A stretch of DNA of 26,786 nt, from the IMG/VR virus record IMGVR_UViG_3300021420_000109, positions 1 to 26,786 of that record; one strand, written 5' to 3'. The notes under the pieces are model-generated. The model did not search any database, had not been told where the DNA came from, and saw nothing but the letters and a program-made list of their open reading frames with translations. The stretch's first letter is position 1, and every line of letters begins with the position of its first letter. This document shows positions 7,009 to 26,786 of this stretch, one piece after another. A program made the position numbers and the translations under genes. Source of the DNA: a virus.

Positions 7009-7895
7009 TATCTATATCCTGCTGCTTTCATCTTTTGTCTTTCAGCAATTTGAATATTTCGCTTTCTAATAAATTCATTCATATTTTGAGTATCTTTATC
7101 AGTAATAACCATATCGTTATTTGTACCTGATGTTTTACCTCCAATAGGTTCGATAGGCTTAGGAACTTTAGAAACTGCTTTAGATGCAGGTTTCGCCGCA
7201 AGTTTAACTGATAATTTGGTCAATTCAACAGCCGCCTTTGCAGGAGATAAAGTTATAATACGTTCGTATTCATCAACATCATCAGCTAATGAAACTAACA
7301 CTGCACCACCATTATCAAGATCATCTAAAATTCCGATCATATGACCTGGAATAGGTGCTGTTTCTTCAGCAATAACTTTAATTTTCTTTATGAAATCTTT
7401 ATCAAGCTTTTCCGCAGCATCAGCAAGTCGATTGCTTGCATTTAAAAATTCACGTTCTGCAACTTTTTGCTCTGCTTTAGCGTTAGCTCGCTTATCAACT
7501 TCATCCTCATCAAACTTACCTTCCTTACCTTCTTTAGCAGCAGCAAGTTGACGTTTTGTTTCTGCAAGTTCTTCTTCAAGCGTCTTTCGCTTGGCAACCT
7601 CTTTATCAATCTTTCGTTGAATGCGTGACTTTTCAACTTGTGTTTTAGCTTCTTGCTTTTCAGTTTCTAATTCTTCTTCAGTCTTTTCACTAGCTGTTAT
7701 TTCTTCTTTAGTTTCTTCAGTTTTAGTTTCTTCAGTTTTAGTTTCTACAACAATTTCTTCTTTAGTTTCCTTTTTTGTTTCATCTTCTTTCTTTTCAATA
7801 ACATTACCATCATCATCCTTTGTTGCTAAACCAGTCATATTAACCATTTTACGTGCTGCTTCCAAAGAAGCAATTTCTTCAGGTGTTTTACTCAT
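7008..7895 (-). CDS. Capsid scaffolding protein
   Basis: A 295-residue protein located two genes before the coat gene. Residues about 30-80 are a low-complexity Glu/Lys/Thr tract; about 85-150 is a charged coiled-coil (RIQRKIDKEVAKRKTLEEEL, then AETKRQLAAAKE); the C-terminus is basic and helical (NEFIRKRNIQIAERQKMKAA). This acidic coiled-coil body with a basic C-terminal helix is typical of phage scaffolds, which co-assemble with coat through the C-terminal helix and leave the procapsid afterwards. P22 scaffold has a similar length (303). The start at 7895 has a good AAGAGG tract and overlaps the previous stop (ATGA). Confidence 0.75.
   Translation of the reverse strand: MSKTPEEIASLEAARKMVNMTGLATKDDDGNVIEKKEDETKKETKEEIVVETKTEETKTEETKEEITASEKTEEELETEKQEAKTQVEKSRIQRKIDKEVAKRKTLEEELAETKRQLAAAKEGKEGKFDEDEVDKRANAKAEQKVAEREFLNASNRLADAAEKLDKDFIKKIKVIAEETAPIPGHMIGILDDLDNGGAVLVSLADDVDEYERIITLSPAKAAVELTKLSVKLAAKPASKAVSKVPKPIEPIGGKTSGTNNDMVITDKDTQNMNEFIRKRNIQIAERQKMKAAGYR
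7711..7740. repeat. Two 15-bp direct repeats inside the scaffold gene
   Basis: The 15-base unit gtttcttcagtttta occurs twice head to tail (7711-7725 and 7726-7740) and begins again at 7741. On the coding strand it gives a tandem Lys-Thr-Glu-Glu-Thr repeat in the acidic tract. Being in phase with the codons, copy changes would lengthen or shorten the tract without a frameshift. Confidence 0.8.
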
Positions 7896-16159: not shown

Positions 16160-16413
16160 GCTAATTTCTTTTGATCAATACTATTTTTTCGCAAATTACA
16201 TTTATAATGCACCAATACAATATTTAAACTATTTACTTTTCCACCTTCGGATTTTCTTTTTAAATGTTCAAATGTCGCAAAATCTTTTGAGGGAGCACCG
16301 CATTGTCTTCTATTAAAAGACATTAATTTATTGCAATAATAACAATTACCATTTTGTTTTTCAAATAATTGTATTCTAAATTGATTTTTATATGGTCCTA
16401 TTCCTTTAGACAT
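16156..16413 (-). CDS. Small HNH endonuclease between terminase and portal
   Basis: An 85-residue protein if started at the ATG that shares a base with the terminase stop (TAATG at 16413); an ATG at 16428 would add five residues. Motifs: NGNCYYCNKLM (a Cys-x2-Cys zinc pair), DFATFEHLKRKSEGGK with the central His, and NSLNIVLVHYKCNLRK with the second Cys and Asn. This is the CxxC ... H ... N ... CN layout of compact HNH nucleases. In cos-type phages an HNH protein beside the terminase assists DNA cleavage; here it could do that or be a free-standing mobile nuclease. Coupling on both sides favours a resident late gene. Confidence 0.75.
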   Translation of the reverse strand: MSKGIGPYKNQFRIQLFEKQNGNCYYCNKLMSFNRRQCGAPSKDFATFEHLKRKSEGGKVNSLNIVLVHYKCNLRKNSIDQKKLA

Positions 16414-17795
16414 TAACCACTCATCCAACCATTTTGATGTCTATTCAAACTATGTACATTATGAGCAATCTTAGGTTTAGGTACTATTGCCATTTCAGGC
16501 TTTAAACTTAATGCAAATGTTTGAAATGCATCGGCACCATGCGAATACTCATCATGACGCGGATTTTGACTAAATTGACCATCTTCATTAACATCGTACT
16601 GATAACGAATTAAACACTGCCAGCCATCGGCAGTGTTTTCTTCATCAAAATTACATAAATCAAATACAGACCTTCCAGCCCTAATTCCCATTACTTTTTT
16701 AGATATTCTCGGAACAACTCTAACTTTACCTGGATAACTAGCACGCAATTGTTTAACCGGACTACGACCGGCTAACGTCTCATTATCTCCATCATGCGGT
16801 AAATTATGAAATCCGTAATTATATTTACAATCTTGAAGATAACTTATATAATAAGGCATCTTCTGTAATCTATCTTGAAAAAATCGAATTAAATTATAAT
16901 GCATTCCTACTTGTTGAATAAACCAAATAGATGTATAATCATCGTGCCCTAAATCCCAAAATGTATGAACAGGACGGCTAGGATCATATTCGACTTTCCC
17001 GCGCCGCCCTTCAAGTAAAACTTTCTTAATCTCTTGTGCATAAATTGCACCAACTAAGGTTTGTCGAGTTTGACCACCCCAAATATGCATCCATTCATCA
17101 TTATCACCAACTCTTAATAATTCACATTCTAATTTAAGATCATCTGGCAACCATGGATTATCTTTATAACTAAGCATTTGAACAAATGCATAACGAACTT
17201 TATCCCCACAATTATTAATTATAAAGTCAGGAGCATAAATATCTCGCTTTACTATAAAGCGTTTGTAAGTTTCATCAGTATCTAATTCAGGATTAAAACT
17301 AATCCAAATTTCAGTTCCTTTACCGAAAGGACCACCTTTATTGAAATCGATATTTTCTAATACAACTCGTTGACCACGACCACGAATTGTGGGGATAAGT
17401 TTATCCCATGAAGCTTTAGAAACGTTAACAGCTTCTTCAATCCATGCAATATCAATACGAGCAAGCGATTTAATCGAGTTAATATTGAAACGTAATCCAA
17501 AAAATATAAACTCTGCACCAGTACGCTTTGAAATTATTGTAGTTGCTTGTATATCAAATTCATTTGATAATCCCATATCCTCAATACGATTTACAATGGT
17601 TTGATATACACTTTCATTAATTGATTTTTGAATTTCACGAAAACATGCTATTCTTATTTTACATTTACAAGATAATATAATAAGTGCTAAAGCAATTGTT
17701 TCAGTTTTCATTCCTCCCCGACCACCATAGAGAATTTTATAGCGAGCAGGTTCGTTAATTAAAAATAAAAGTTTTTCGGGAAATTCTATCCTCAT
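16413..17795 (-). CDS. Terminase large subunit (packaging ATPase/nuclease)
   Basis: A 460-residue protein. ATPase: Walker A YGGRGGMKTE (residues 23-32), adenine-side CFREIQKSI (51-59), Walker B IDIAWIEEA (114-122), coupling motif ISFNPE (165-170). Nuclease: HTFWDLGHDD with Asp281, and HDEYSHGADAFQTF with Asp422; HDGDNE (334-339) may add a metal ligand. This order is that of the large terminase that cuts concatemers and drives DNA into the procapsid through the portal. Length is typical. The gene starts nine bases after the lectin-like gene. No small-subunit gene is seen upstream. Confidence 0.9.
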   Translation of the reverse strand: MRIEFPEKLLFLINEPARYKILYGGRGGMKTETIALALIILSCKCKIRIACFREIQKSINESVYQTIVNRIEDMGLSNEFDIQATTIISKRTGAEFIFFGLRFNINSIKSLARIDIAWIEEAVNVSKASWDKLIPTIRGRGQRVVLENIDFNKGGPFGKGTEIWISFNPELDTDETYKRFIVKRDIYAPDFIINNCGDKVRYAFVQMLSYKDNPWLPDDLKLECELLRVGDNDEWMHIWGGQTRQTLVGAIYAQEIKKVLLEGRRGKVEYDPSRPVHTFWDLGHDDYTSIWFIQQVGMHYNLIRFFQDRLQKMPYYISYLQDCKYNYGFHNLPHDGDNETLAGRSPVKQLRASYPGKVRVVPRISKKVMGIRAGRSVFDLCNFDEENTADGWQCLIRYQYDVNEDGQFSQNPRHDEYSHGADAFQTFALSLKPEMAIVPKPKIAHNVHSLNRHQNGWMSG

Positions 17796-17804
17796 TATAA
17801 AGTT

Positions 17805-19307
17805 TCAATTTTGCACCAATTTATCACTAAATTGTGATTGCCATACTTGAATTTTTTTTACGCTCATTGCCCAATTACCCATACCAGTCCCGACATTACA
17901 AGCTGTAGGCGTAAATGAAGCTGTGCAGCCACTTGAAATAATCAAAATGAATCCATTGCTACCATCTGCTTCTGTAAATGCTCCATCATAAGGGGATGCT
18001 GTACATGTTGCCTGCTTGCCGCTTCCTTTGGCGAAATAGGTGCAATTATTGGCATTGGTTGCGATCATCAGCGATGATGCGACTTGACCGCGGTTAAAAC
18101 TTAAAGCATATACACCAACCTTACCCGTAGTGCCGCTAGTTTGCGATGCAACAGTTGTTGCTGCCGTAGTTCCGTTATTATTCCCGATATAGCTTCCGAC
18201 GGCGATAGAACCAGCAGATAGCATTTGCGTGACATGCAGCGTCACGCCATCACTATCGATTGAGCCGGTGAAAACCGCATTACCGGGGCAGGTATCTGCA
18301 TCAACTAAATAGCCATAAAATCCCGTTCCGTTGTTTTTTGATGGAGGCACCCATAATTGATCGAAGGTATGAAAAGTATTGCCGTCTAAAACCGGATTGC
18401 ATTCTGTCGAACGCAGCGGCGGCGTACCAAAATAATCAGAGAAGATCGAGCCGCCAGAACACGAAACACCGCAAAGATTGTCATGCAAAAAATTATTTAG
18501 CAGTACATTACCATTATTACTAAAACAATCACAATTGTCGGTCTCGATGAAATTCGAACCAGGTATCGTTCCGGGCCATGAAGTTAACCACCACGCAGGC
18601 CATCGCCAAGGTGATCCCGCAATTCCGTTCGGCGCCTTGGTTTCATCGAATGAAACATATGCGCGCGCGTAAAGGCCATTTTTGAAACTAATACCCCGAT
18701 AAGTTTCCGGTACTCCTGAAGGAACATTTAAAGAAGTCCATGTACTGATACCATAATTACTATCGCCCTGTGAAACATTAGTTAGTGTCAACCCGGTAAC
18801 TGGATCAACCGATAAAGTGTTGGTAGCTTGAATGATCGAAGCCATGAACTCGCAACTAGCGAGTGTTTGCGCCGGACTAACCGTATATGTCCCCGTTCCA
18901 CCGGAACCTGCCGTGATAGTCGTCCCTATTGACGGAGCGCACCCTCCGGCTCCGACACCAGGACTCAATGTCATTCCAACTTTAAGTACCGCAGAAGACA
19001 CAGCCGTTACTGTCATCGTGCCAGTGTTGGCAATTGACGCAGTTAAATCTACACGAGTTAAACCTTGAGTACGCCAATTAAATCCAGCGGCATTAGTAGC
19101 GCCAAGATCGATCGTCGCAAGCGACGTCATCGGATCAAAAAATGTGCACGTATTAAATCCAAAAGCACCAGCAGTACTCGGAACGGCGTCAGGACAACCT
19201 TGTGAAGAACTAGTTGAAAAAACTTGAAATATAGCAAATCCTGCCATCGCTAATTTAGCGATCAATAGAATACCAATAATTGATAATGCAATTAGAGAAC
19301 GACGCAT
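17805..19307 (-). CDS. Exported GH16/concanavalin-A-like protein with two inserted beta repeats
   Basis: A 500-residue protein with a signal peptide or anchor (RRSLIALSIIGILLIAKLAM, end near MAG). A lectin/glucanase-like scaffold is visible: GLYARAYVSFDETKAPNG (211-228), WRWPAWWLTSWPG (234-246), FIETDNCDCF (253-262) and FHTFDQLWVPP (312-322), the order of strands seen in family-16 glycosidases, where E-x-D-x-x-E carries catalysis. Here the third acidic residue is Asp. Residues 91-158 and 346-416 hold two copies of a G-T/V-T-T-V-VG repeat common in phage fibre proteins. At least ten Cys fit an oxidising compartment. It may bind or cut a surface polysaccharide. Confidence 0.55.
   Translation of the reverse strand: MRRSLIALSIIGILLIAKLAMAGFAIFQVFSTSSSQGCPDAVPSTAGAFGFNTCTFFDPMTSLATIDLGATNAAGFNWRTQGLTRVDLTASIANTGTMTVTAVSSAVLKVGMTLSPGVGAGGCAPSIGTTITAGSGGTGTYTVSPAQTLASCEFMASIIQATNTLSVDPVTGLTLTNVSQGDSNYGISTWTSLNVPSGVPETYRGISFKNGLYARAYVSFDETKAPNGIAGSPWRWPAWWLTSWPGTIPGSNFIETDNCDCFSNNGNVLLNNFLHDNLCGVSCSGGSIFSDYFGTPPLRSTECNPVLDGNTFHTFDQLWVPPSKNNGTGFYGYLVDADTCPGNAVFTGSIDSDGVTLHVTQMLSAGSIAVGSYIGNNNGTTAATTVASQTSGTTGKVGVYALSFNRGQVASSLMIATNANNCTYFAKGSGKQATCTASPYDGAFTEADGSNGFILIISSGCTASFTPTACNVGTGMGNWAMSVKKIQVWQSQFSDKLVQN
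18060..18272 (-). repeat. Beta-repeat copy 2 in the lectin-like protein (residues 346-416)
   Basis: Reads through FTGSIDSDGVTLHVTQMLSA, GSIAVGSYI, TTVASQTSGTTGKVGVYALS to QVASSLMIA. Same order as copy 1: strand, '-TAVSS--L-VG', TT-x-TVAS, GT-G-Y, Q--AS. It interrupts the lectin scaffold after GYLVDADTCPG. Confidence 0.55.
18834..19037 (-). repeat. Beta-repeat copy 1 in the lectin-like protein (residues 91-158)
   Basis: Reads SIANTGTMTVTAVSSAVLKV, GMTLSPGVGAGGCAP, TTITAGSGGTGTYTVSPAQT, LASCEFMAS. Modules of this type (VTAVSSG-L-VGQ-L-G ... GTGGTGTYTV--SQTVAS) are frequent in phage fibre and environmental surface proteins. The two Cys in this copy have no counterpart in copy 2. Confidence 0.65.
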
Positions 19308-19317
19308 TAATCACCTA

Positions 19318-20229
19318 TTAGCTAGTTGGGCAAGAACCATGAACTGTCATAAAATAAGTACAAAGACGACCTTCAAGGTTTGTAACATCAGTAGATGATA
19401 AACTGCCTCCGATAGTGATTGCACCAAGCTGTAAAATACTCCCGAAATTCACCGTTGATCCGGCAACACGCTGAGCAAGGATAGCAACGTTACCATTGAG
19501 AACGGCGGCAGATGCTTCTGTGCTATCACCGACATCGGATGCATTCTTGTAATGTTGAACTGCACCGGCACTAGAACGATTAACCACATAATGACCAATA
19601 CTATCAGCATTCAATATCCCTGTAGCGTTTGTTGCGGAATTAGCATCACCGTAAAAGTTGCCATCATTATATTTCGGAAACAGTCTCGTGGAATTAGTTG
19701 CCGCCAATACAAGACCCATAACCGTACCGCCCGATGCACCGCTTGTAGCATTTGTGAAACTCCATGCCGATACGTGCGAAGAATTCTGCGTGAAATGCGG
19801 TGAAGTTGCAGTTGAAGGATTGAAACCAGTATCGATATAGATCGTTGTGCTGGCATCGACACCGCTCCATCCATTATTTGCGGAAAAACAGGCAGTAGCC
19901 CCAGCGCAACCCGTTGAAACATTGCCGTTTGCAGTTCCATTAAAAGTGCCAGGATTGACAGCATTGACGAGAGAATTTGCACTGGAATTGATGGCAAAAA
20001 TATAAAGCACATCAAGCTTGGCAAACACACCATCGGTCACGAGCCCGCAGATCAGTGTCGTAACCGCCGCGGAGTTTTGACCGCTGTCGAGCATACCGTT
20101 ATACGTAGTCGCTTGAGAGCATCCGCCACCTCCTGTCGAAGCCGAAACAAGCGGCAGCCAGCCAGCAGCGCGAACAGCGACAGCAGCAAGTACAAAGAAG
20201 ACACCAATGACGGCGGCGAGCCGTTTCAT
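19318..20229 (-). CDS. Exported beta-rich protein (303 aa), probable surface or fibre protein
   Basis: A 303-residue protein with a clear signal peptide (KRLAAVIGVFFVLAAVAV, cleavage near RAAG). The body has CSQATTYNGMLDSGQNSAAV, LICGLVTDGVFAKLDVLYIF, WSGVDASTTIYIDTGFNPST, HVSAWSF and LFPKYNDGNFYGDAN, ending SLSSTDVTNLEGRLCTYFMT. This type of protein (jelly-roll/LamG-like sequence with paired Cys) occurs in phages and prophages next to fibre genes; function unknown. The start overlaps the previous stop (ATGA), and the gene is about 50% GC, unlike the head genes. Confidence 0.55.
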   Translation of the reverse strand: MKRLAAVIGVFFVLAAVAVRAAGWLPLVSASTGGGGCSQATTYNGMLDSGQNSAAVTTLICGLVTDGVFAKLDVLYIFAINSSANSLVNAVNPGTFNGTANGNVSTGCAGATACFSANNGWSGVDASTTIYIDTGFNPSTATSPHFTQNSSHVSAWSFTNATSGASGGTVMGLVLAATNSTRLFPKYNDGNFYGDANSATNATGILNADSIGHYVVNRSSAGAVQHYKNASDVGDSTEASAAVLNGNVAILAQRVAGSTVNFGSILQLGAITIGGSLSSTDVTNLEGRLCTYFMTVHGSCPTS

Positions 20230-20486
20230 GGCTTCTTTTCCTCCCCGGCATTTTCCTTCGTTTTCTCGGCCGCATCGCGCTCGGCCTTCAACGCCTCGGG
20301 TAGCTTGACCTTCGCAAGATCACAAAAGTCCTGGAACCTCATGCGAAAGCCGTAAAGAGCCGCTTCACAGAGCAGCGGAATGATCGTCGCTTGATCGGCA
20401 AGCGTCAGCGGAATGTTGACCGTGGACTGCTGAGCGCCGGCACAAGATGGCGTAAGCAGAGTCAGAATGACTAAAATTCTTCGCAT
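20226..20486 (-). CDS. Small exported hypothetical protein (86 aa)
   Basis: Starts MRRILVILTLLTPSCAGAQQ, a short signal peptide with probable cleavage after AGA; the SCA is not a good lipobox. The mature part holds IPLTLADQATIIPLLCEAAL, two further Cys and a charged helical end rich in Ala, Lys and Glu. No family recognised. It is GC-rich, starts eight bases after the previous stop behind a GAGGTAAGG tract, and is coupled to the next gene. Confidence 0.5.
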   Translation of the reverse strand: MRRILVILTLLTPSCAGAQQSTVNIPLTLADQATIIPLLCEAALYGFRMRFQDFCDLAKVKLPEALKAERDAAEKTKENAGEEKKP

Positions 20487-20494
20487 ACCTTACC

Positions 20495-20839
20495 TCAATT
20501 CGGCGCGATCGGCACATAGGGCACGGCGTTCTGTAGAACCTGCAATTGAAACGCGTTGACTTGCCCCACGAACGTATCCCGCAAAGTTCCGGCCCAATAA
20601 TTGAGAACTTGCGCAGTCGTGCACGTTCCGTTGATGCTGGTATTGCAGCCGGATTGGAAGACCTGCACGATATTGGTTTGCAACGTGTTAGGCTTAGCCG
20701 TTCCCGCATCAGTGAAAGTCCGCGAACAGCCTGCCATACAAAGACCAGCAGGCGTTGTAAGCGTGATCGTGATCGTGTCAGCAGCGGCCGGCAGGGAAAG
20801 GCAGGCGAGTAACGAAGCGAGCAAGAGTTGTTTCTTCAT
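20495..20839 (-). CDS. Small exported hypothetical protein (114 aa), Cys-rich
   Basis: Start chosen at ATG 20839 (MKKQLLLASLLACLSLPAAA), a classical signal peptide, four bases after the fibre-like gene's stop; longer frames upstream overlap that gene. The mature part begins DTITITLTTPAG and holds four Cys (GLCMAGCSR; SGCNTSINGTC), then a helical end FVGQVNAFQLQVLQNAVPYV. Disulfide-bonded periplasmic or secreted protein is the natural reading. No family recognised. Confidence 0.55.
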   Translation of the reverse strand: MKKQLLLASLLACLSLPAAADTITITLTTPAGLCMAGCSRTFTDAGTAKPNTLQTNIVQVFQSGCNTSINGTCTTAQVLNYWAGTLRDTFVGQVNAFQLQVLQNAVPYVPIAPN

Positions 20840-20843
20840 GTGA

Positions 20844-22310
20844 TCAGTCCGTTTTCCATGAGGTTCCATCACAGTAGACCGAGGCGTGCGTGGTTCCGCC
20901 ACTAGCATAGGCGGTTAGAAACGTTGGCGTCAAAGCATCAGACACCGCAGCACGCGAACCTTCTGCGGCACCATTACAAGTCGGAAGCGGAGTACCGGCG
21001 GCGCTGAATACAACGTTATTTTGAATCACGCCAGTATTCTTAACTGTGAATACTGCTGCAAGAGCATTTTGAGACGTTCCAGTTGTCCCAGCTTTTGCTG
21101 TTTGAAAGATAATATCGCCACCTGCGCCGGTGCCAGTTCCTTGAGAACCATTAAAAGTCCAATTGACGCCTGCCGTGTTGCTGGTGCCAGCTACCACATT
21201 TTGAACTTGAAGCGTTTGAGCAACCGGAGCACCAGCATCAGCCTGTCCTAATTGCCACGCATTATTCGATGGTATTGTTATATACGTACTAGTCGAACCA
21301 GTCCAATTTTGCAATAACAAAGTTCCATTAGCAGAAGCACTAATATTGAATCTACTTTGAATTGATAATGATCCAGTTGTTCCAACTGTTAGATTTCCAC
21401 TTGAAATAATACTGCCGGAATTCACAACTCCAGAAAACGTATGCTGATTAGTTGTACCTATTCCATAATCATATCTAAGCGTTCCAGAAATAGCTAGACC
21501 TAATTTTGAAGCAGCCGTAACATACCATCCCGTATTATTTTCAAAATTATTCATCGCAAGAGACGGAGCCGCCACCGAGCCGGCTCCATTCACTGCAATC
21601 GAATCGGCACCAAGCGCCCAAGCTTTAGTAAGCGTGACATTGGTTCCAGCTACTGGAACCTTAATATATGCCCCATAATAATTCGTGAACGTCGTCGCAT
21701 TCGATGCGGCAACGGTATTGCCACCGAAAATATCTGTATAAGCATTCGCAACTGTACCGCTTGATGTGGTATCTGTCATCGTCGCCGTAACGTTCGCGTA
21801 ACGAATGCCAGCCGTTGTCCACGCTGCTGCGGAGATATTACCGCTCAAGCCGAAACTGCCACCTGCGACAGTGGTCTTTCCATTAAGCGTAGCCGTCCCG
21901 GATGTACACAGCACATCCGAACCTATGGTGCAGCCATCGATCGCAACCGAGGTCGCAGTCGCAACACCGAGAACAGGTGTAATCAGCGTCGGCGAGGTCT
22001 GCATCACCGCGACCGTGCCGGTGCCGGTCAGCGTATATTCTCCAAGCACTCCCGCATTGTCATAGAGAATGCGCGTCGTCGTCCCGCTCGTGATCGTGCT
22101 GGTTCCAACAGTGAGCCCACCGCCACTGCCACATGCGCCGGAGCCCACAGTACCGCTACTGATCGTGAGGCATTGGCCGTTTGACCCGCCCGTAACAGGC
22201 GTCGTATTGACGACAATCGTTGTCTGCGCCGAAGCCGTTATAGTCTGCGGGTAGGCAGGCGACAACGCGAAAAGTAGGCCAAAAAGAACACCAGCCAAGG
22301 TTCGTCGCAT
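20844..22310 (-). CDS. Tail-fibre-like protein with signal peptide (488 aa)
   Basis: Start chosen at ATG 22310, sharing one base with the previous stop (TGATG), followed by a signal peptide RRTLAGVLFGLLFALSPAYP. The body is Gly/Thr/Ser/Val-rich: SNGQCLTISSGTVGSGACGS, then TSTITSGTTTRILYDNAGVL and GEYTLTGTGTVAVMQTSPTL, a module well known from phage fibre proteins; later FTNYYGAYIKVPVAG and NNTGWYVTAASKLG; the end TPTFLTAYASGGTTHASVYC resembles fibre C-termini. The combination of fibre modules with a secretion signal is unusual. Composition changes within the gene (GC-rich first third, AT-rich middle). Confidence 0.6.
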   Translation of the reverse strand: MRRTLAGVLFGLLFALSPAYPQTITASAQTTIVVNTTPVTGGSNGQCLTISSGTVGSGACGSGGGLTVGTSTITSGTTTRILYDNAGVLGEYTLTGTGTVAVMQTSPTLITPVLGVATATSVAIDGCTIGSDVLCTSGTATLNGKTTVAGGSFGLSGNISAAAWTTAGIRYANVTATMTDTTSSGTVANAYTDIFGGNTVAASNATTFTNYYGAYIKVPVAGTNVTLTKAWALGADSIAVNGAGSVAAPSLAMNNFENNTGWYVTAASKLGLAISGTLRYDYGIGTTNQHTFSGVVNSGSIISSGNLTVGTTGSLSIQSRFNISASANGTLLLQNWTGSTSTYITIPSNNAWQLGQADAGAPVAQTLQVQNVVAGTSNTAGVNWTFNGSQGTGTGAGGDIIFQTAKAGTTGTSQNALAAVFTVKNTGVIQNNVVFSAAGTPLPTCNGAAEGSRAAVSDALTPTFLTAYASGGTTHASVYCDGTSWKTD

Positions 22311-23377
22311 CACATCACCATGCCATGAATAAAGCCCGTAGTCGCAAGCGTCAACGTCGCGCAAGTCGTGGAAGAAATTGCCGCAGTAATCCCTACCGAA
22401 TAAACAGCAGGCGGTCCGCCAGCATAATTAACCGATCCAAAACCGCCGGCTGAAATCGGAATACATTCGACCATATTGCCAGATGCAACACCTGCCGTAG
22501 TTGATCCATTACTCGGTGCAGAGGTCGAATTGAACACCATCAACCAGCAAGCCGCCGAACATTCAGCGTAGACACTATAAAGATTGCCGGCCGCATTTTT
22601 AAGAACAAGTGATGACGCTGCCGAACCACCAACGACCGGTGTTATGCCAACCAATGCCGAAGATGACGGAGCGGGACCAACAAATGGAACGGCGTTCGCC
22701 GCAGCAGCAGGACCAAGCGTGATAATGCCTGGACTATCCGGCCGGAGATCGACCACAAGCGCCGTATTAGTTGCCGTAACCGGAGCAGTGTTTACTGCAA
22801 CTTGACCTGTCGTAGTTGCAGTACCACCAAAAGCTGCAACATTAACTGGAATATTGGATTGATTGCTAGCAACCACAACTGGCGACGAATTTCCCATCGT
22901 CGCTTGACCATTAGCATTAGCATTCGCAACATTAACACGAACGTTTCCATTCGTGTCACAAGACAATGGATCAGTTTGCGCCGTTACATATGTCGGTGAT
23001 CCTGTCGTAACTGCACATTGAACAAGAAGACCTGTTTGACCTGATGTAGTTGAAGCTTGTGCAGCAGCAGTTGGTTGATTAGCTGATATAGCAAGTGCGG
23101 ATGTATTTAAATTAGTACCAGCATTAGCTGTAATAGTACCAGAAACAGGTTGTGTAACTGCCGAATTATCAACTTTAACTGCACCACCAGCACTTACAGC
23201 AGCACATTGATTAGCTGTAGTAGCATCACAAAATAATGATGAAACGAAATGAACACCACCAATTACAATAGAACCAAAATTAGTACCCATACCTTGTGTA
23301 GCAGCATAGTTACCTAATGCTATACCACCACAAACACTTATTAAAATTGCAGCAGTAGATAACCATTTTCTTAACAT
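22310..23377 (-). CDS. Tail-fibre-like protein with hydrophobic leader (355 aa)
   Basis: Start chosen at ATG 23377 (MLRKWLSTAAILISVCGGIA), two bases after the previous stop. Residues 1-25 are a signal peptide or anchor. The middle has GNSSPVVVASNQSNIPVNVA and repeated TGQ-V/TNTA phrases, a module common in phage fibres. The C-terminal third, KNAAGNLYSVYAECSAACWL then MVFNSTSAPSNGS and SVGITAAISSTTCATLTLAT, resembles fibre or receptor-binding tips. The first 140 residues are AT-rich, the rest GC-rich, suggesting a recombination joint around 22.95 kb. Confidence 0.6.
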   Translation of the reverse strand: MLRKWLSTAAILISVCGGIALGNYAATQGMGTNFGSIVIGGVHFVSSLFCDATTANQCAAVSAGGAVKVDNSAVTQPVSGTITANAGTNLNTSALAISANQPTAAAQASTTSGQTGLLVQCAVTTGSPTYVTAQTDPLSCDTNGNVRVNVANANANGQATMGNSSPVVVASNQSNIPVNVAAFGGTATTTGQVAVNTAPVTATNTALVVDLRPDSPGIITLGPAAAANAVPFVGPAPSSSALVGITPVVGGSAASSLVLKNAAGNLYSVYAECSAACWLMVFNSTSAPSNGSTTAGVASGNMVECIPISAGGFGSVNYAGGPPAVYSVGITAAISSTTCATLTLATTGFIHGMVM

Positions 23378-23379
23378 AA

Positions 23380-23562
23380 TTATAATCCGCCTAATGCCAT
23401 TGGTTGAACACATCCTGTTGAAAAATCAATAACACCAGCACAAGCACCACTAACAGCAGGATTACCCGAACTACCTACCCAAAAAAACAATATATTTCCT
23501 GCTTTCGCAGTTAACGAAAGTAAAATTATAATAAGCGTTACAAATAATAATTGCTTAATCAT
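23380..23562 (-). CDS. Short exported protein (60 aa)
   Basis: Starts MIKQLLFVTLIIILLSLTAK, a strong signal peptide with likely cleavage after AKA, leaving a mature peptide of about 40 residues: GNILFFWVGSSG, then ACAGVIDFSTGCVQPMALGG with two Cys. The start overlaps the previous stop (ATGA). No family recognised; small size and Cys pair suggest a secreted peptide or a periplasmic factor. Confidence 0.55.
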   Translation of the reverse strand: MIKQLLFVTLIIILLSLTAKAGNILFFWVGSSGNPAVSGACAGVIDFSTGCVQPMALGGL

Positions 23563-24026
23563 CGTTGCGGTTTATAATGTACATTAACAATATAAGTAGA
23601 TGCTGCAGGAGCATTAGTATCATTATCTGCAATTCCAGTAGTAACACACATTACTATTCCAAAACCATAAGCATCACCATTAATATTAGGTAATGCAAAT
23701 CCACCACCACTTGCCGAGGTACCAAACGGTATCATCATTCGATCTACAGGCGCAGGAGTTGTTTGCCCACAAGTAGCAGCTTGTAAACAAGTCGCGCTAG
23801 TTGCTGTTCCACAAGCATTATATAATTTGATAAAAGCTAAGGTGGTTCCATTATTATAAGCATCAACAAAATATAAAGCAGCAGGTTTATTAGAAATAAC
23901 AATAGCTGTAGTATTATTAGCAATTAAAGTAGATGTAACAGAAAGTTCACCATCCGCTTGAAAAAGCGGTGCTGCAAAAGATAAATTACTATATAATAAT
24001 AGTAATAATGCTAAAAAACGTTTCAT
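23559..24026 (-). CDS. Exported beta-rich phage protein (155 aa)
   Basis: Start chosen at ATG 24026 (MKRFLALLLLLYSNLSFAAP), a clear signal peptide ending at SFA; the longer frame from 24038 adds four residues inside the previous gene. The mature part, NNTTAIVISNKPAALYFVDA then NGTTLAFIKLYNACGTAT, continues VDRMMIPFGTSASGGGFALP and YGFGIVMCVTTGIADNDTNA, the pattern of a small beta-sandwich protein encoded beside phage fibres. Four Cys. Coupled on both sides (ATGA). Function unknown. Confidence 0.55.
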   Translation of the reverse strand: MKRFLALLLLLYSNLSFAAPLFQADGELSVTSTLIANNTTAIVISNKPAALYFVDAYNNGTTLAFIKLYNACGTATSATCLQAATCGQTTPAPVDRMMIPFGTSASGGGFALPNINGDAYGFGIVMCVTTGIADNDTNAPAASTYIVNVHYKPQR

Positions 24027-24487
24027 GTGCAACCCCAAACACCGTCTTTAGCTGACATGCAAGCTAATCTAACATGAGTAGCAAGAGTAATACTTGTACC
24101 AGCGTTAATAGTATCCTGCGAATTAGTGTTAGGATTATTCATAACCGATGGATAAATAGTTGCTGTGGTGCCAGTTGCATTATAAATATGTAAAACTGTT
24201 CCAGCAAATGCATATGGTAAATTAAATCCTGTATTTGCTGCTACCGTATCTAATTCATATAACCTAACACTACCAGGCAACGGTGTCGCTGTTGCTTGTG
24301 TAGTACCTGCACCAGTTAAATTATTGGCAAAAATATTATTAGTACCTTGTGCAATACCAAGTACCCATTGACTATCCATCAAACGAAAACCACCATTAGC
24401 AGGCGGTGGACGACCTGAAATAGCAGTAGCAACAACAACAGAACCAATTAATGCACCAATAGCCGCACCTAATAATAATTTCTTCAT
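24023..24487 (-). CDS. Membrane-anchored or exported small beta protein (154 aa)
   Basis: The N-terminus MKKLLLGAAIGALIGSVVVA is a signal anchor. After a Pro/Gly linker come GTNNIFANNLTGAGTTQATA, LYELDTVAANTGFNLPYAFA, GTVLHIYNATGTTATIYPS and a closing RLACMSAKDGVWGC. The 'GTTQA-A-PL ... N-G--LP-A--GT---IYN-TG-T--IYP' pattern is frequent in small phage proteins near fibres and may be a fibre-tip or chaperone-like domain. The start overlaps the stop of the TPR-like frame (ATGA). Confidence 0.55.
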   Translation of the reverse strand: MKKLLLGAAIGALIGSVVVATAISGRPPPANGGFRLMDSQWVLGIAQGTNNIFANNLTGAGTTQATATPLPGSVRLYELDTVAANTGFNLPYAFAGTVLHIYNATGTTATIYPSVMNNPNTNSQDTINAGTSITLATHVRLACMSAKDGVWGCT

Positions 24488-24807
24488 GGTATTTTCCTCT
24501 GAGATAAAACAAATCTAGTAAATGGGGCATCCGGTGCTAATTTATATAATGCCTTAAATTGTTCTTCGGCACCTTTATAATCATGCACATTCATCATATG
24601 ATTAATAAGTATTCGTCTTAAATTAATTGATTTAGGCTCTAATTTTTGTATTTGTAGTAAAGGGGTAATTAATAGGTTATCCAAATCGGCAACTTGAATA
24701 AAACCTTCTCTATATCTAAAATCAAAAGGAAATAGATTAATCGCTAATTGTAACTGATATAAATTTTGATTGTACATTCCTTGCGAATGAAAATATTCTG
24801 CTTCCAT
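24484..24807 (-). CDS. TPR-like segment, probable displaced C-terminus of the O-antigen polymerase
   Basis: The frame is open from 24936, but residues before about MEAEYFHSQG (ATG 24807) are a shifted reading of the polymerase's last membrane helix, so I report from 24807 (107 residues). The content, NQNLYQLQLAINLFPFDFRY then REGFIQVADLD and a second helical pair HDYKGAEEQFKALYKLAPDA, is that of TPR helices; 'A--LFPFD-RYRE' is the usual sequence after the membrane part of Wzy/ligase-type proteins. Its stop overlaps the next ATG (ATGA), which argues that this frame is translated. See the finding on the frame change. Confidence 0.5.
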   Translation of the reverse strand: MEAEYFHSQGMYNQNLYQLQLAINLFPFDFRYREGFIQVADLDNLLITPLLQIQKLEPKSINLRRILINHMMNVHDYKGAEEQFKALYKLAPDAPFTRFVLSQRKIP

Positions 24808-25750
24808 ATAAAAGCAAGCTGTTATCGGACCAATTACGCACGCATTCAATAATGCACAGCGCCATAATAAATAAGGTAGCTGGCATATGGCTTGGAAACC
24901 CAAACATAGCAATAATTCCAAAGGTCCATAAAACATATTTTATTCGACAATTAGAAAATAAAATAAAAGCAAAAGCACCAATAGGGATAATCCCAAAAAT
25001 ACCCAAATCATATAATAATTCTAAATAATCATTATGAATGTAAGTTACATTATAATTAAAATCAACAAATCCAGTATAATTTAAATAATCATTACGAAAA
25101 GATGAGATACCATTGCCTAACCAATGTAAATTACTAATTGCAAAAGACCATAATTCAATTCGATCTTGAAATGAATTTAAGTCAAATCGGAAATAAACTA
25201 TCACGCCACCAAGGAATAATAGAAGGGTAATTACCAAATATTGGTATATATTTAATTTCAATTTTTTGTAACAAATTATCCAAATCATACCCACAATAAG
25301 CAAAGCGAGCATCGAAGCCCTTTGCATCGGCAATAGCATTGCCGGTATCATTGGTAGCACATGAAGCCATTTGCGATATATGATGCATCCAACTATCACC
25401 AATGCTGTTGTTTCTGCGAGGATATTACCATTAACAAATAAACCAGCAGGACGCCAAGATAAACTAACAATCCAATATTGAATATCAGTATTTATATAAT
25501 CAGATGTAAAATTCAAATTCCAACGAAACCATTGACCTAAACAAATCAAACTATTAATAGCTATTCCATATGAAGCAAATACAAAAATCTTTTCTAAGTT
25601 AACTTTTCTCACAAACGGAAGAAATGTATATAAAATACACCATCTTAATGTCGTGGCCGGTGCTTCAATTCCAGGCCAATATGCAATCATTAAGAAGAAA
25701 GTTATTAAAGGCAACCATCCATTACGTTTAAACCAAGAAAATACGAACAT
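24737..25750 (-). CDS. O-antigen polymerase/ligase-like membrane protein (Wzy/WaaL type)
   Basis: From ATG 25750 (MFVFSWFKRNGWLPLITFFL) the product has 337 residues; ATG 25787 and GTG 25804 are alternatives, but would overlap the 30-residue gene more. About nine or ten hydrophobic helices are visible. Family marks: MQRASMLALLIVG, DRIELWSFAISNLHWLGNGI, HNDYLELLYDLGIFG (about residues 239-253) and FGFPSHMPATLFIMAL. These are the O-antigen ligase domain motifs of proteins that join or polymerise lipid-linked glycans at the periplasmic face. The last 33 residues, after IIECV, are unlike the family and probably follow a frame change. A phage polymerase can alter host O-antigen and block further infection. 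Confidence 0.65.
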   Translation of the reverse strand: MFVFSWFKRNGWLPLITFFLMIAYWPGIEAPATTLRWCILYTFLPFVRKVNLEKIFVFASYGIAINSLICLGQWFRWNLNFTSDYINTDIQYWIVSLSWRPAGLFVNGNILAETTALVIVGCIIYRKWLHVLPMIPAMLLPMQRASMLALLIVGMIWIICYKKLKLNIYQYLVITLLLFLGGVIVYFRFDLNSFQDRIELWSFAISNLHWLGNGISSFRNDYLNYTGFVDFNYNVTYIHNDYLELLYDLGIFGIIPIGAFAFILFSNCRIKYVLWTFGIIAMFGFPSHMPATLFIMALCIIECVRNWSDNSLLLYGSRIFSFARNVQSKFISVTISD

Positions 25751-25760
25751 ATTAAATTTG

Positions 25761-25853
25761 CTAATACAAAGGCCGCGATAATCCATAGTAACAAAGGATG
25801 ACACCGATCACACCTAGTATGACCGATATCATCCATATCGTGTCCTCAAACAT
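25761..25853 (-). CDS. Single-helix membrane miniprotein (30 aa)
   Basis: An ATG shares one base with the fibre-gene stop (TAATG at 25855-25851) and the frame ends in TAG at 25763-25761. The 30-residue product begins MFEDTIWMISVILGVIGVIL and ends CYYGLSRPLY: acidic start, one membrane helix, Arg near the end, so N-outside/C-inside or the reverse is possible. The ATG of the next gene follows ten bases after the stop. It fills a gap otherwise without coding. No family recognised. Confidence 0.45.
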   Translation of the reverse strand: MFEDTIWMISVILGVIGVILCYYGLSRPLY

Positions 25854-26786
25854 TACGGTTCCGCGGACCAGCCTAACACACCAGTACCAGTACCGGAACC
25901 ATCAAACGTAGTACCTTGACCAGCAGTAATAGCCGCATTGCCGCCAAGACCGCCTTGGTACTGATTATTAGTAAGCCCGGCAGTGCTTAGATTGGTAACT
26001 GTCTGTAAAGTACCAGCAGCATTAACTTTAAATCCACCAATAGTAATAGGTGTCGTAGTAGGTGTAATTCTCATACGATTTGGAAACTGACATACAACAT
26101 TAAAAGCATTAGTAGTGGTAGCTTGACCAGGACAATAAATAACAGTTCCCGAACCATTTTCACTAATCTGATAATAGCGAGCGGTTTCAAGCTGCCATTC
26201 ATCACTTAATAAATGTCTATCATAAGGCGAAGCTGCAAAAGATGTACCAGAACGATATTCTAATTGAGCATTACCAATTTCAAACCAATCGTTAGCACCA
26301 GCAGTGCCAACAGGAGTTACACAAAGCTTAACGCCAACACCAAGAATATTTGTAGTAGTACCTGGAACATTTAACGGAATAGTGGCAGCAACACTATAAC
26401 GTGTCCATGTAGTAGTAACCGGTGTAAGAGTGTTAACCGCTTCGGTATAGTTAGTAATATTCTGAGTACCAGGAACCGATGTAGCAAAAGTATTGGTATT
26501 AGTACCTTGACCGTTTGCACTTGCCGCAGCATCGGCAGCAGTATGATATGCAATTACCATATTAACACCAGCAGGAGAAAAGTTTGCTCCTGCAAGCATA
26601 TCAACACTAAATACGGCAGTACGCTGATTAGCAGCGATGTTTGAATTAAGAGTATTTTGTGTGCTAACAAATGGCGGTGTAGTATCATCAGGCGTTAATT
26701 GACCAGTACAAACTTGTCCAACACCAGTTTGCGCATTAACACGTTGAATACGCATTGATGCAGCCGAACCCGGCGGTTGATCAGTA
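25853..26786 (-). CDS. Tail fibre / receptor-binding protein, C-terminal part (5'-truncated by window)
   Basis: The first Met is at 26755, but the frame is open to the right edge (TDQPPGSAAS precedes MRIQRVNAQT), so the start lies outside the window. The visible 311 residues show a carbohydrate-binding-like beta-sandwich: TVFSV-type strands (RTAVFSVDMLAGANFSPAGV), WTRYSVAATIPLNVPG, VGVKLCVTP, NDWFEIGNAQLEYRSGTSFA, then ASPYDRHLLSDEWQLETARY and YQISENGSG. This 'W--iGN-QLE-G---s-fe---y--E---c-RYYQ' layout is typical of phage fibre domains. It ends with a Gly/Thr-rich segment. Its stop overlaps the ATG of the 30-residue gene. Confidence 0.7.
   Translation of the reverse strand, partial: TDQPPGSAASMRIQRVNAQTGVGQVCTGQLTPDDTTPPFVSTQNTLNSNIAANQRTAVFSVDMLAGANFSPAGVNMVIAYHTAADAAASANGQGTNTNTFATSVPGTQNITNYTEAVNTLTPVTTTWTRYSVAATIPLNVPGTTTNILGVGVKLCVTPVGTAGANDWFEIGNAQLEYRSGTSFAASPYDRHLLSDEWQLETARYYQISENGSGTVIYCPGQATTTNAFNVVCQFPNRMRITPTTTPITIGGFKVNAAGTLQTVTNLSTAGLTNNQYQGGLGGNAAITAGQGTTFDGSGTGTGVLGWSAEP

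Follow-up and report, generated by a model that had tools for sequence, protein, structure and literature searches.

What a gene of the O-antigen polymerase and ligase type does among phage late genes is the question raised by a 26,786-base phage fragment from IMG/VR, hereafter called the window, which carries P22-like late genes. All main genes of the window share the minus strand. They comprise a fibre-like gene, the Wzy region, several successive genes for exported-looking proteins, and genes for terminase (PF04466), a P22-like portal, scaffold, coat, head-closure and tail proteins.

Gene layout of the Wzy region

The fibre-like gene (25853..26785, minus strand; phrog_4492 tail fiber, E 2.1e-8) is truncated by the end of the window and lies directly upstream of the Wzy region. 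As an earlier note on this DNA had reported, a Wzy_C membrane protein with the motif HNDYLELL is encoded on the minus strand just 3' of this gene. The same note had taken 24484-25853 to be a single gene, which was not borne out: the stretch holds two overlapping frames, wzy and a second frame designated ORF2. The wzy core frame (24737..25804, minus strand, frame 0) comprises 355 codons from a GTG at 25804 and matches Pfam Wzy_C with an E value of 3.4e-10; alignment with its counterpart in contig L141 points to an ATG at 25750 as the likely start. Residues 150-273 make up the Wzy_C stretch (24986..25357, minus strand), with HNDYLELL at 25013-25036. ORF2, the helper gene (24484..24849, minus strand, frame +1), has a probable TTG start at 24849 in a frame that is open from 24936 to 24484, and shares 24737..24849 on the same strand with wzy. 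The TPR-like part described as an extension of the Wzy protein is present in the predicted model, but it sits in the +1 frame as a separate open frame and not on the Wzy chain.

Base 25853 is not the Wzy start. The fibre stop codon ends on this base, which also serves as the A of the ATG of a 30-codon hydrophobic frame (25761..25853, minus strand); that frame overlaps the stop (TAATG) and is possibly not a gene. The description of the region as a coupled late chain was upheld, as the genes are co-directional and, besides the TAATG after the fibre gene, the ORF2 stop overlaps the ATG of the next gene (ATGA), which encodes an exported-looking product (24023..24487, minus strand). A promoter search of the region returned 34 promoter-like sites against a mean of 30.2 in shuffled sequences, which is no excess. 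Between the fibre gene and wzy (25796-25834) a hairpin of 18 pairs was seen, followed by a short T-rich tail. About 90 bases between these two genes, hairpin included, are missing from L141, where the gap is 8 bases, and the hairpin may be a terminator, an attenuator or a small insertion.

Relatives and distribution of the pair

The feature is more than a chance arrangement, because it is repeated across 16 phage contigs, namely the window, L004, L030, L036, L073, L074, L076, L077, L078, L080, L082, L083, L084, L085, L140 and L141. A search with the terminase yielded 68 viral loci, of which 50 were searched as whole records, and the available stretches of all 68 were scanned. Of the 50 loci searched whole, 3 contained Wzy_C, and 3 of the 68 stretches contained the wzy pair, many of these loci being short; the pair is an accessory feature of this phage group. 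A profile built from four cores returned 14 loci, namely three known contigs, ten new ones and L086, which was left out of the set on account of its weak profile match and lack of ORF2. The fibre search gave four loci, two of them with wzy. A relative of the window's terminase was located downstream of wzy in 9 of the 13 other contigs compared, and PF04466 was found in 9 of 14 records, the window included.

A quick tree of 52 proteins placed 14 of the phage cores in a single group (SH-aLRT 100), to which none of the 33 bacterial or 5 other viral proteins belonged. No match was obtained for the window core alone against viral contigs, for two cores against 50,697 phage records, for the core and ORF2 against PHROGs, against PDB sequences, for the phage proteins against NCBIfam, or at E 0.001 against a viral structure library. 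Recent capture from a host was considered and dropped: 34 matches in species genomes had best segments 21-39% identical, from one short scan pattern in which the absence of closer kin weighs little.

Several other features were noted in these records. Another viral group is represented by L132 and L133, two different wzy-like genes of one record (IMGVR_UViG_3300028146_000022), with no TPR partner on the same chain. The 48 kb contig L139 (IMGVR_UViG_3300020580_000022) breaks off within a fibre gene 99% identical to that of the window and may be the complementary part of a nearly identical phage. The terminase frame (839 codons) and portal frame (~1150 codons) at L122 6531-9047 and L124 6995-10447 are much longer than those of relatives and possibly contain inteins or insertions. 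In L030, a 176-residue frame (7331-7861) that resembles an HNH-type endonuclease by eye lies between an exported-protein gene and wzy.

The core protein has the family signature and fold of WaaL

The window core scored 40.3 bits with Pfam Wzy_C (PF04932), above the curated cut-off of 31.7 bits, as did those of L073 (40.1) and L036 (38.6); two relatives scored alone fell below it (L076, 26.2; L004, 24.9). Membership of the ligase/polymerase family, as the earlier note had proposed, is thereby supported, and the WaaL-like fold of the predicted core supports it as well. PF04932 is common to O-antigen polymerases, O-antigen ligases and protein glycosyltransferases, so a family match judged from sequence would not separate these activities. 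PglL_A (PF15864) was not reported at E <= 1 for the cores of the window, L036, L004, L073 or L076, a search in which HMMER filters may drop weak matches.

H257, N258, D259 and G268 were invariant in an alignment of four cores, as were R162 and R215. Ten residues separate H257 from G268, and the equivalents of R162, R215, H257 and G268 are invariant in the 14-core set. Two arginines and one histidine (R215, R288 and H338) are described as essential in Escherichia coli WaaL (PMC3643930); core R162, R215 and H257 were paired with these by motif order and not by residue alignment. The structure of the window core was predicted from 35 aligned sequences with a pLDDT of 78.4 and a pTM of 0.80. WaaL (7tpg) was its best solved match, with a Z score of 15.3 over 275 aligned residues, far above unrelated structures, and a modest Foldseek E value of 0.028; FtsW and RodA came next (Z 7.4-11.2). 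At 457 codons, the wzy frame of L140 (6886-8259) seems to hold an insertion within the core that its relatives lack.

ORF2 resembles the TPR part of bacterial Wzy_C proteins

The predicted model of the ORF2 protein (pLDDT 89) consists of one long helix, assigned to the membrane, and three TPR-like hairpins. The Pfam TPR score of 14.2 bits is below the cut-off of 23.5, and in a comparison of the model with the PDB, TPR proteins ranked first with a best E value of 5e-3, none reaching 1e-3. An ORF2 profile matched the C-termini of bacterial Wzy_C-TPR proteins (E 1.5e-5, probability 79.5). Because TPR-bearing bacterial relatives such as L105 and L099 have Wzy_C and TPRs on one chain, the phage pair is a divided form of this known single-chain architecture. 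ORF2 was present in 14 of the 14 wzy records searched, a result that holds partly by construction, the profile having been built from the same 14 ORF2 rows, and was found in none of the 65 terminase loci whose examined stretch is without wzy. The helper is short in L077, L078, L083 and L084, with one helix and at most about one hairpin.

The two frames overlap in a fixed register

The frames overlap in 15 of 16 contigs (13 of the first 14, plus L140 and L141), a count over loci that are not independent, L083 and L084 being near copies and L036 and L074 close. The exception is L030, in which the wzy stop is followed by a small hydrophobic frame and then by a separate ORF2 with its own ATG. That one gene had been split by a sequencing error was rejected as an explanation, since the frame arrangement recurs in the 15. 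In these 15 of 16 contigs, the distance from the FPxH/Y motif of the core (frame 0) to an Asp/Glu of the helper (frame +1) is exactly 33 codons without gaps. This register is fixed although the cores are only 22-70% identical to that of L036 and differ by many gaps.

Selection on the two frames could be followed in L036 and L074, the sole informative close pair, the window and L141 being too diverged for a test based on silent changes. From codons -60 to 15, frame 0 carries 12 amino-acid and 21 silent changes, as against 29 and 4 in frame +1; from codons 22 to 59, the corresponding numbers are 20 and 2 in frame 0 and 4 and 17 in frame +1, with 1 base change in the 18 bases of the intervening codons 16-21. 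In this pair, constraint passes from frame 0 to frame +1 where the last core helix ends. The near-identical L083 and L084 show a switch in the same direction, with few changes. At codon 15, alanine is encoded by GCG in all 9 overlapped loci that have it, yielding Arg in frame +1, and the TCG of L082 also gives Arg in that frame; the un-overlapped L030 uses GCC. Because the choice of GCG or TCG always yields Arg there, frame +1 is read at this codon. A product over loci of the probability of frame opening was set aside, as the +1 frame of L083 and L084 closes before the wzy stop.

Separate initiation or frameshifting of ORF2

Three routes of ORF2 production remain: internal initiation without a ribosome-binding site, translational coupling, or +1 frameshifting. 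A TTG, GTG or ATG occurs at or just before the membrane helix in 15 of 15 overlapped loci, and where the window has TTG, L141 has ATG at the corresponding position. Each locus had a chance of 0.36-0.96 of containing a start codon within 7 codons, and that of all 13 having one is ~0.02, which is modest. No ribosome-binding site was detected at the proposed start, the mean energy being -1.3 kcal/mol over 14 loci (L030 included) versus -1.65 at random positions; 36 other gene starts averaged -4.6 kcal/mol. A start farther upstream (ATG 24936 in the window, ATG 5112 in L036) was rejected because the +1 frame is not conserved there; in L036 and L074, 10 of 16 codons of this frame before the switch change amino acid.

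Programmed +1 frameshifting near the end of the last core helix would yield two products, a fusion of Wzy with the TPR part and free Wzy. It would account for the abutting of the conserved parts of the two frames, the 33-codon register, the lack of a ribosome site and the fused form of the bacterial relatives, yet no shared slippery sequence was seen at the switch, and we consider this route somewhat unlikely. Separate initiation is favoured for three reasons: a stretch of 33 codons seems too short to hold two membrane helices with a turn; frame 0 retains Lys/Arg at codon 20, past the switch, in 10 of 16 contigs; and the ORF2 of L030 is free, with its own ATG and a ribosome-site energy of -4.9.

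Exported-looking proteins beside the pair

Tandem genes with signal-peptide-like N-termini were observed just upstream of terminase in phages with or without wzy. In the window this block spans 17805-24487; 14 of 15 other loci have it in the 7 kb that precede terminase, and L031 is without it. In the window it is closed downstream of wzy by the gene for the terminase large subunit (16413..17795, minus strand; PF04466, E 2.8e-38). To our knowledge, exported proteins are unusual among tailed-phage late genes. With a home-made signal-peptide rule applied to 16 of 22 loci, those with long flanks, 59 of 103 frames upstream of terminase looked exported, compared with 4 of 95 downstream. Such frames were equally common in the four loci with wzy (18 of 30) and the twelve without (41 of 73).

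Proposed function and alternatives

An even chance is given to the explanation that best fits the computed family, fold, split, conservation and late position of the pair: a two-part glycan transferase of the WaaL/Wzy family, core plus anchored TPR helper, that would act late and alter the host surface. At the periplasmic side, enzymes of the PF04932 family transfer glycans carried on lipids, and phages are known to use them for surface conversion (PMC4815439, PMC13228068). We infer the contact of the two parts, the periplasmic side of the TPR domain, the activity and its purpose as follows. The core, with about ten membrane helices, the Wzy_C loop and the conserved Arg, Arg and His, would act on lipid-linked sugar chains at the periplasmic side. 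The ORF2 protein, from the overlapping +1 frame, would be anchored by its one N-terminal helix and set a short TPR domain beside the core. Expressed from the late block, the enzyme would be active in the infected cell during lytic growth, most likely changing the linkage or type of the host surface polysaccharide, and the altered surface could hinder superinfection or the loss of progeny on spent cells. Action in lytic growth is weakly suggested by the late-block position, the tight coupling to neighbouring genes and the failure to find an integrase or resolvase in records that are all fragments, and surface conversion in this phase is our best guess from the sequence.

An ordinary lysogenic converter, in which, as with D3 or epsilon15, a pair expressed from the prophage would give the lysogen a new serotype, would match the known use of phage Wzy genes (PMC4815439, PMC13228068), but the late-block position and the lack of an excess of promoter-like sites speak against it. 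No tyrosine integrase (PF00589) was found in 18 records (16 with wzy, nine of at least 46 kb, L139 included), which is weak evidence, all being fragments, and no resolvase-type recombinase (PF00239) in 14 records, again all fragments; we hold lysogenic conversion to be unlikely. The foremost rival on function is a protein O-oligosaccharyltransferase, PglL-like in action, which would transfer a lipid-linked glycan to the exported phage proteins rich in Thr/Ser; the TPR part would present these proteins. Such proteins crowd the region, and 21 of 31 pglL genes are reported to adjoin a target gene (PMC3643930). This reading is likewise improbable in our estimation, as the exported genes are as frequent in phages without wzy and PglL_A was not reported for the window core and four relatives. 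Its elaboration into a lytic-cycle machine for protein glycosylation, in which a split oligosaccharyltransferase would use its TPR subunit to present the many neighbouring Sec-exported, Thr/Ser-rich phage proteins, so that surface proteins of viral origin receive a sugar coat before lysis, is slightly less probable still.

The window copy could also be a decaying gene, that is, a shortened and frame-disrupted remnant. Its core is without ~43 profile columns, corresponding to two helices, relative to its own relatives, its start is uncertain, and the hairpin lies ahead of that start. Decay is nevertheless very unlikely, as the frame arrangement is kept in 15 of 16 contigs and the closest relative of the window, L141 (44% identity over 338 columns), has the same shortened core, of 319 residues. 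Because of this similarity, the short core looks like a trait of the lineage and not like damage.

Comparison with known systems

The two-part surface-converting transferase favoured here has its nearest known phage counterparts in the Wzy-beta of D3 and the epsilon15 converter. Wzy-beta too is phage-encoded, membrane-bound and equipped with a Wzy_C domain (PF04932), and a His motif is essential in it (PMC4815439). The D3 and epsilon15 converters are serotype-converting units used in lysogeny, whereas the pair lies in a late block in which no integrase was found; a separate TPR subunit in an overlapping frame also sets the pair apart. The Acinetobacter prophage proteins Wzy1Ph and Wzy2Ph are likewise encoded by phage wzy genes, and the prophages concerned have a gene for a tailspike depolymerase as well (PMC13228068), so a phage wzy near a tailspike gene has precedent. 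Unlike the phages examined here, those prophages have an integrase, and the portion of that source drawn on mentions no split TPR partner for Wzy1Ph or Wzy2Ph. No split or late-operon phage Wzy was found in searches of open-access journal literature, nor was the conserved pair found in the annotated collections searched.

Among cellular systems, WaaL 7tpg is the closest solved fold, yet it shares 14% identity with the core, and no TPR part is reported for it. The bacterial Wzy_C-TPR proteins (L099 and L105; TIGR03097-like) have the core, an extra membrane helix and the TPR in the same order as the pair, on one polypeptide, whereas the phage pair is encoded by two overlapping genes and its cores form a separate clade. 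PglL shares with the core PF04932 and a gene position close to exported proteins, and differs in the PglL_A signature, not reported for the core.

Whether the TPR part can function as a subunit of its own in Wzy/WaaL-type enzymes is a question to which the pair lends itself naturally; it is also a clean case of dual coding or frameshifting, and a hint that host-surface remodelling forms part of the lytic growth of some phages. It is a variant of the phage-borne serotype-converting Wzy and not a new kind of system: phage Wzy proteins are known as prophage converters, and here a separate phage clade has one in the late block, split in two and held in a fixed register.
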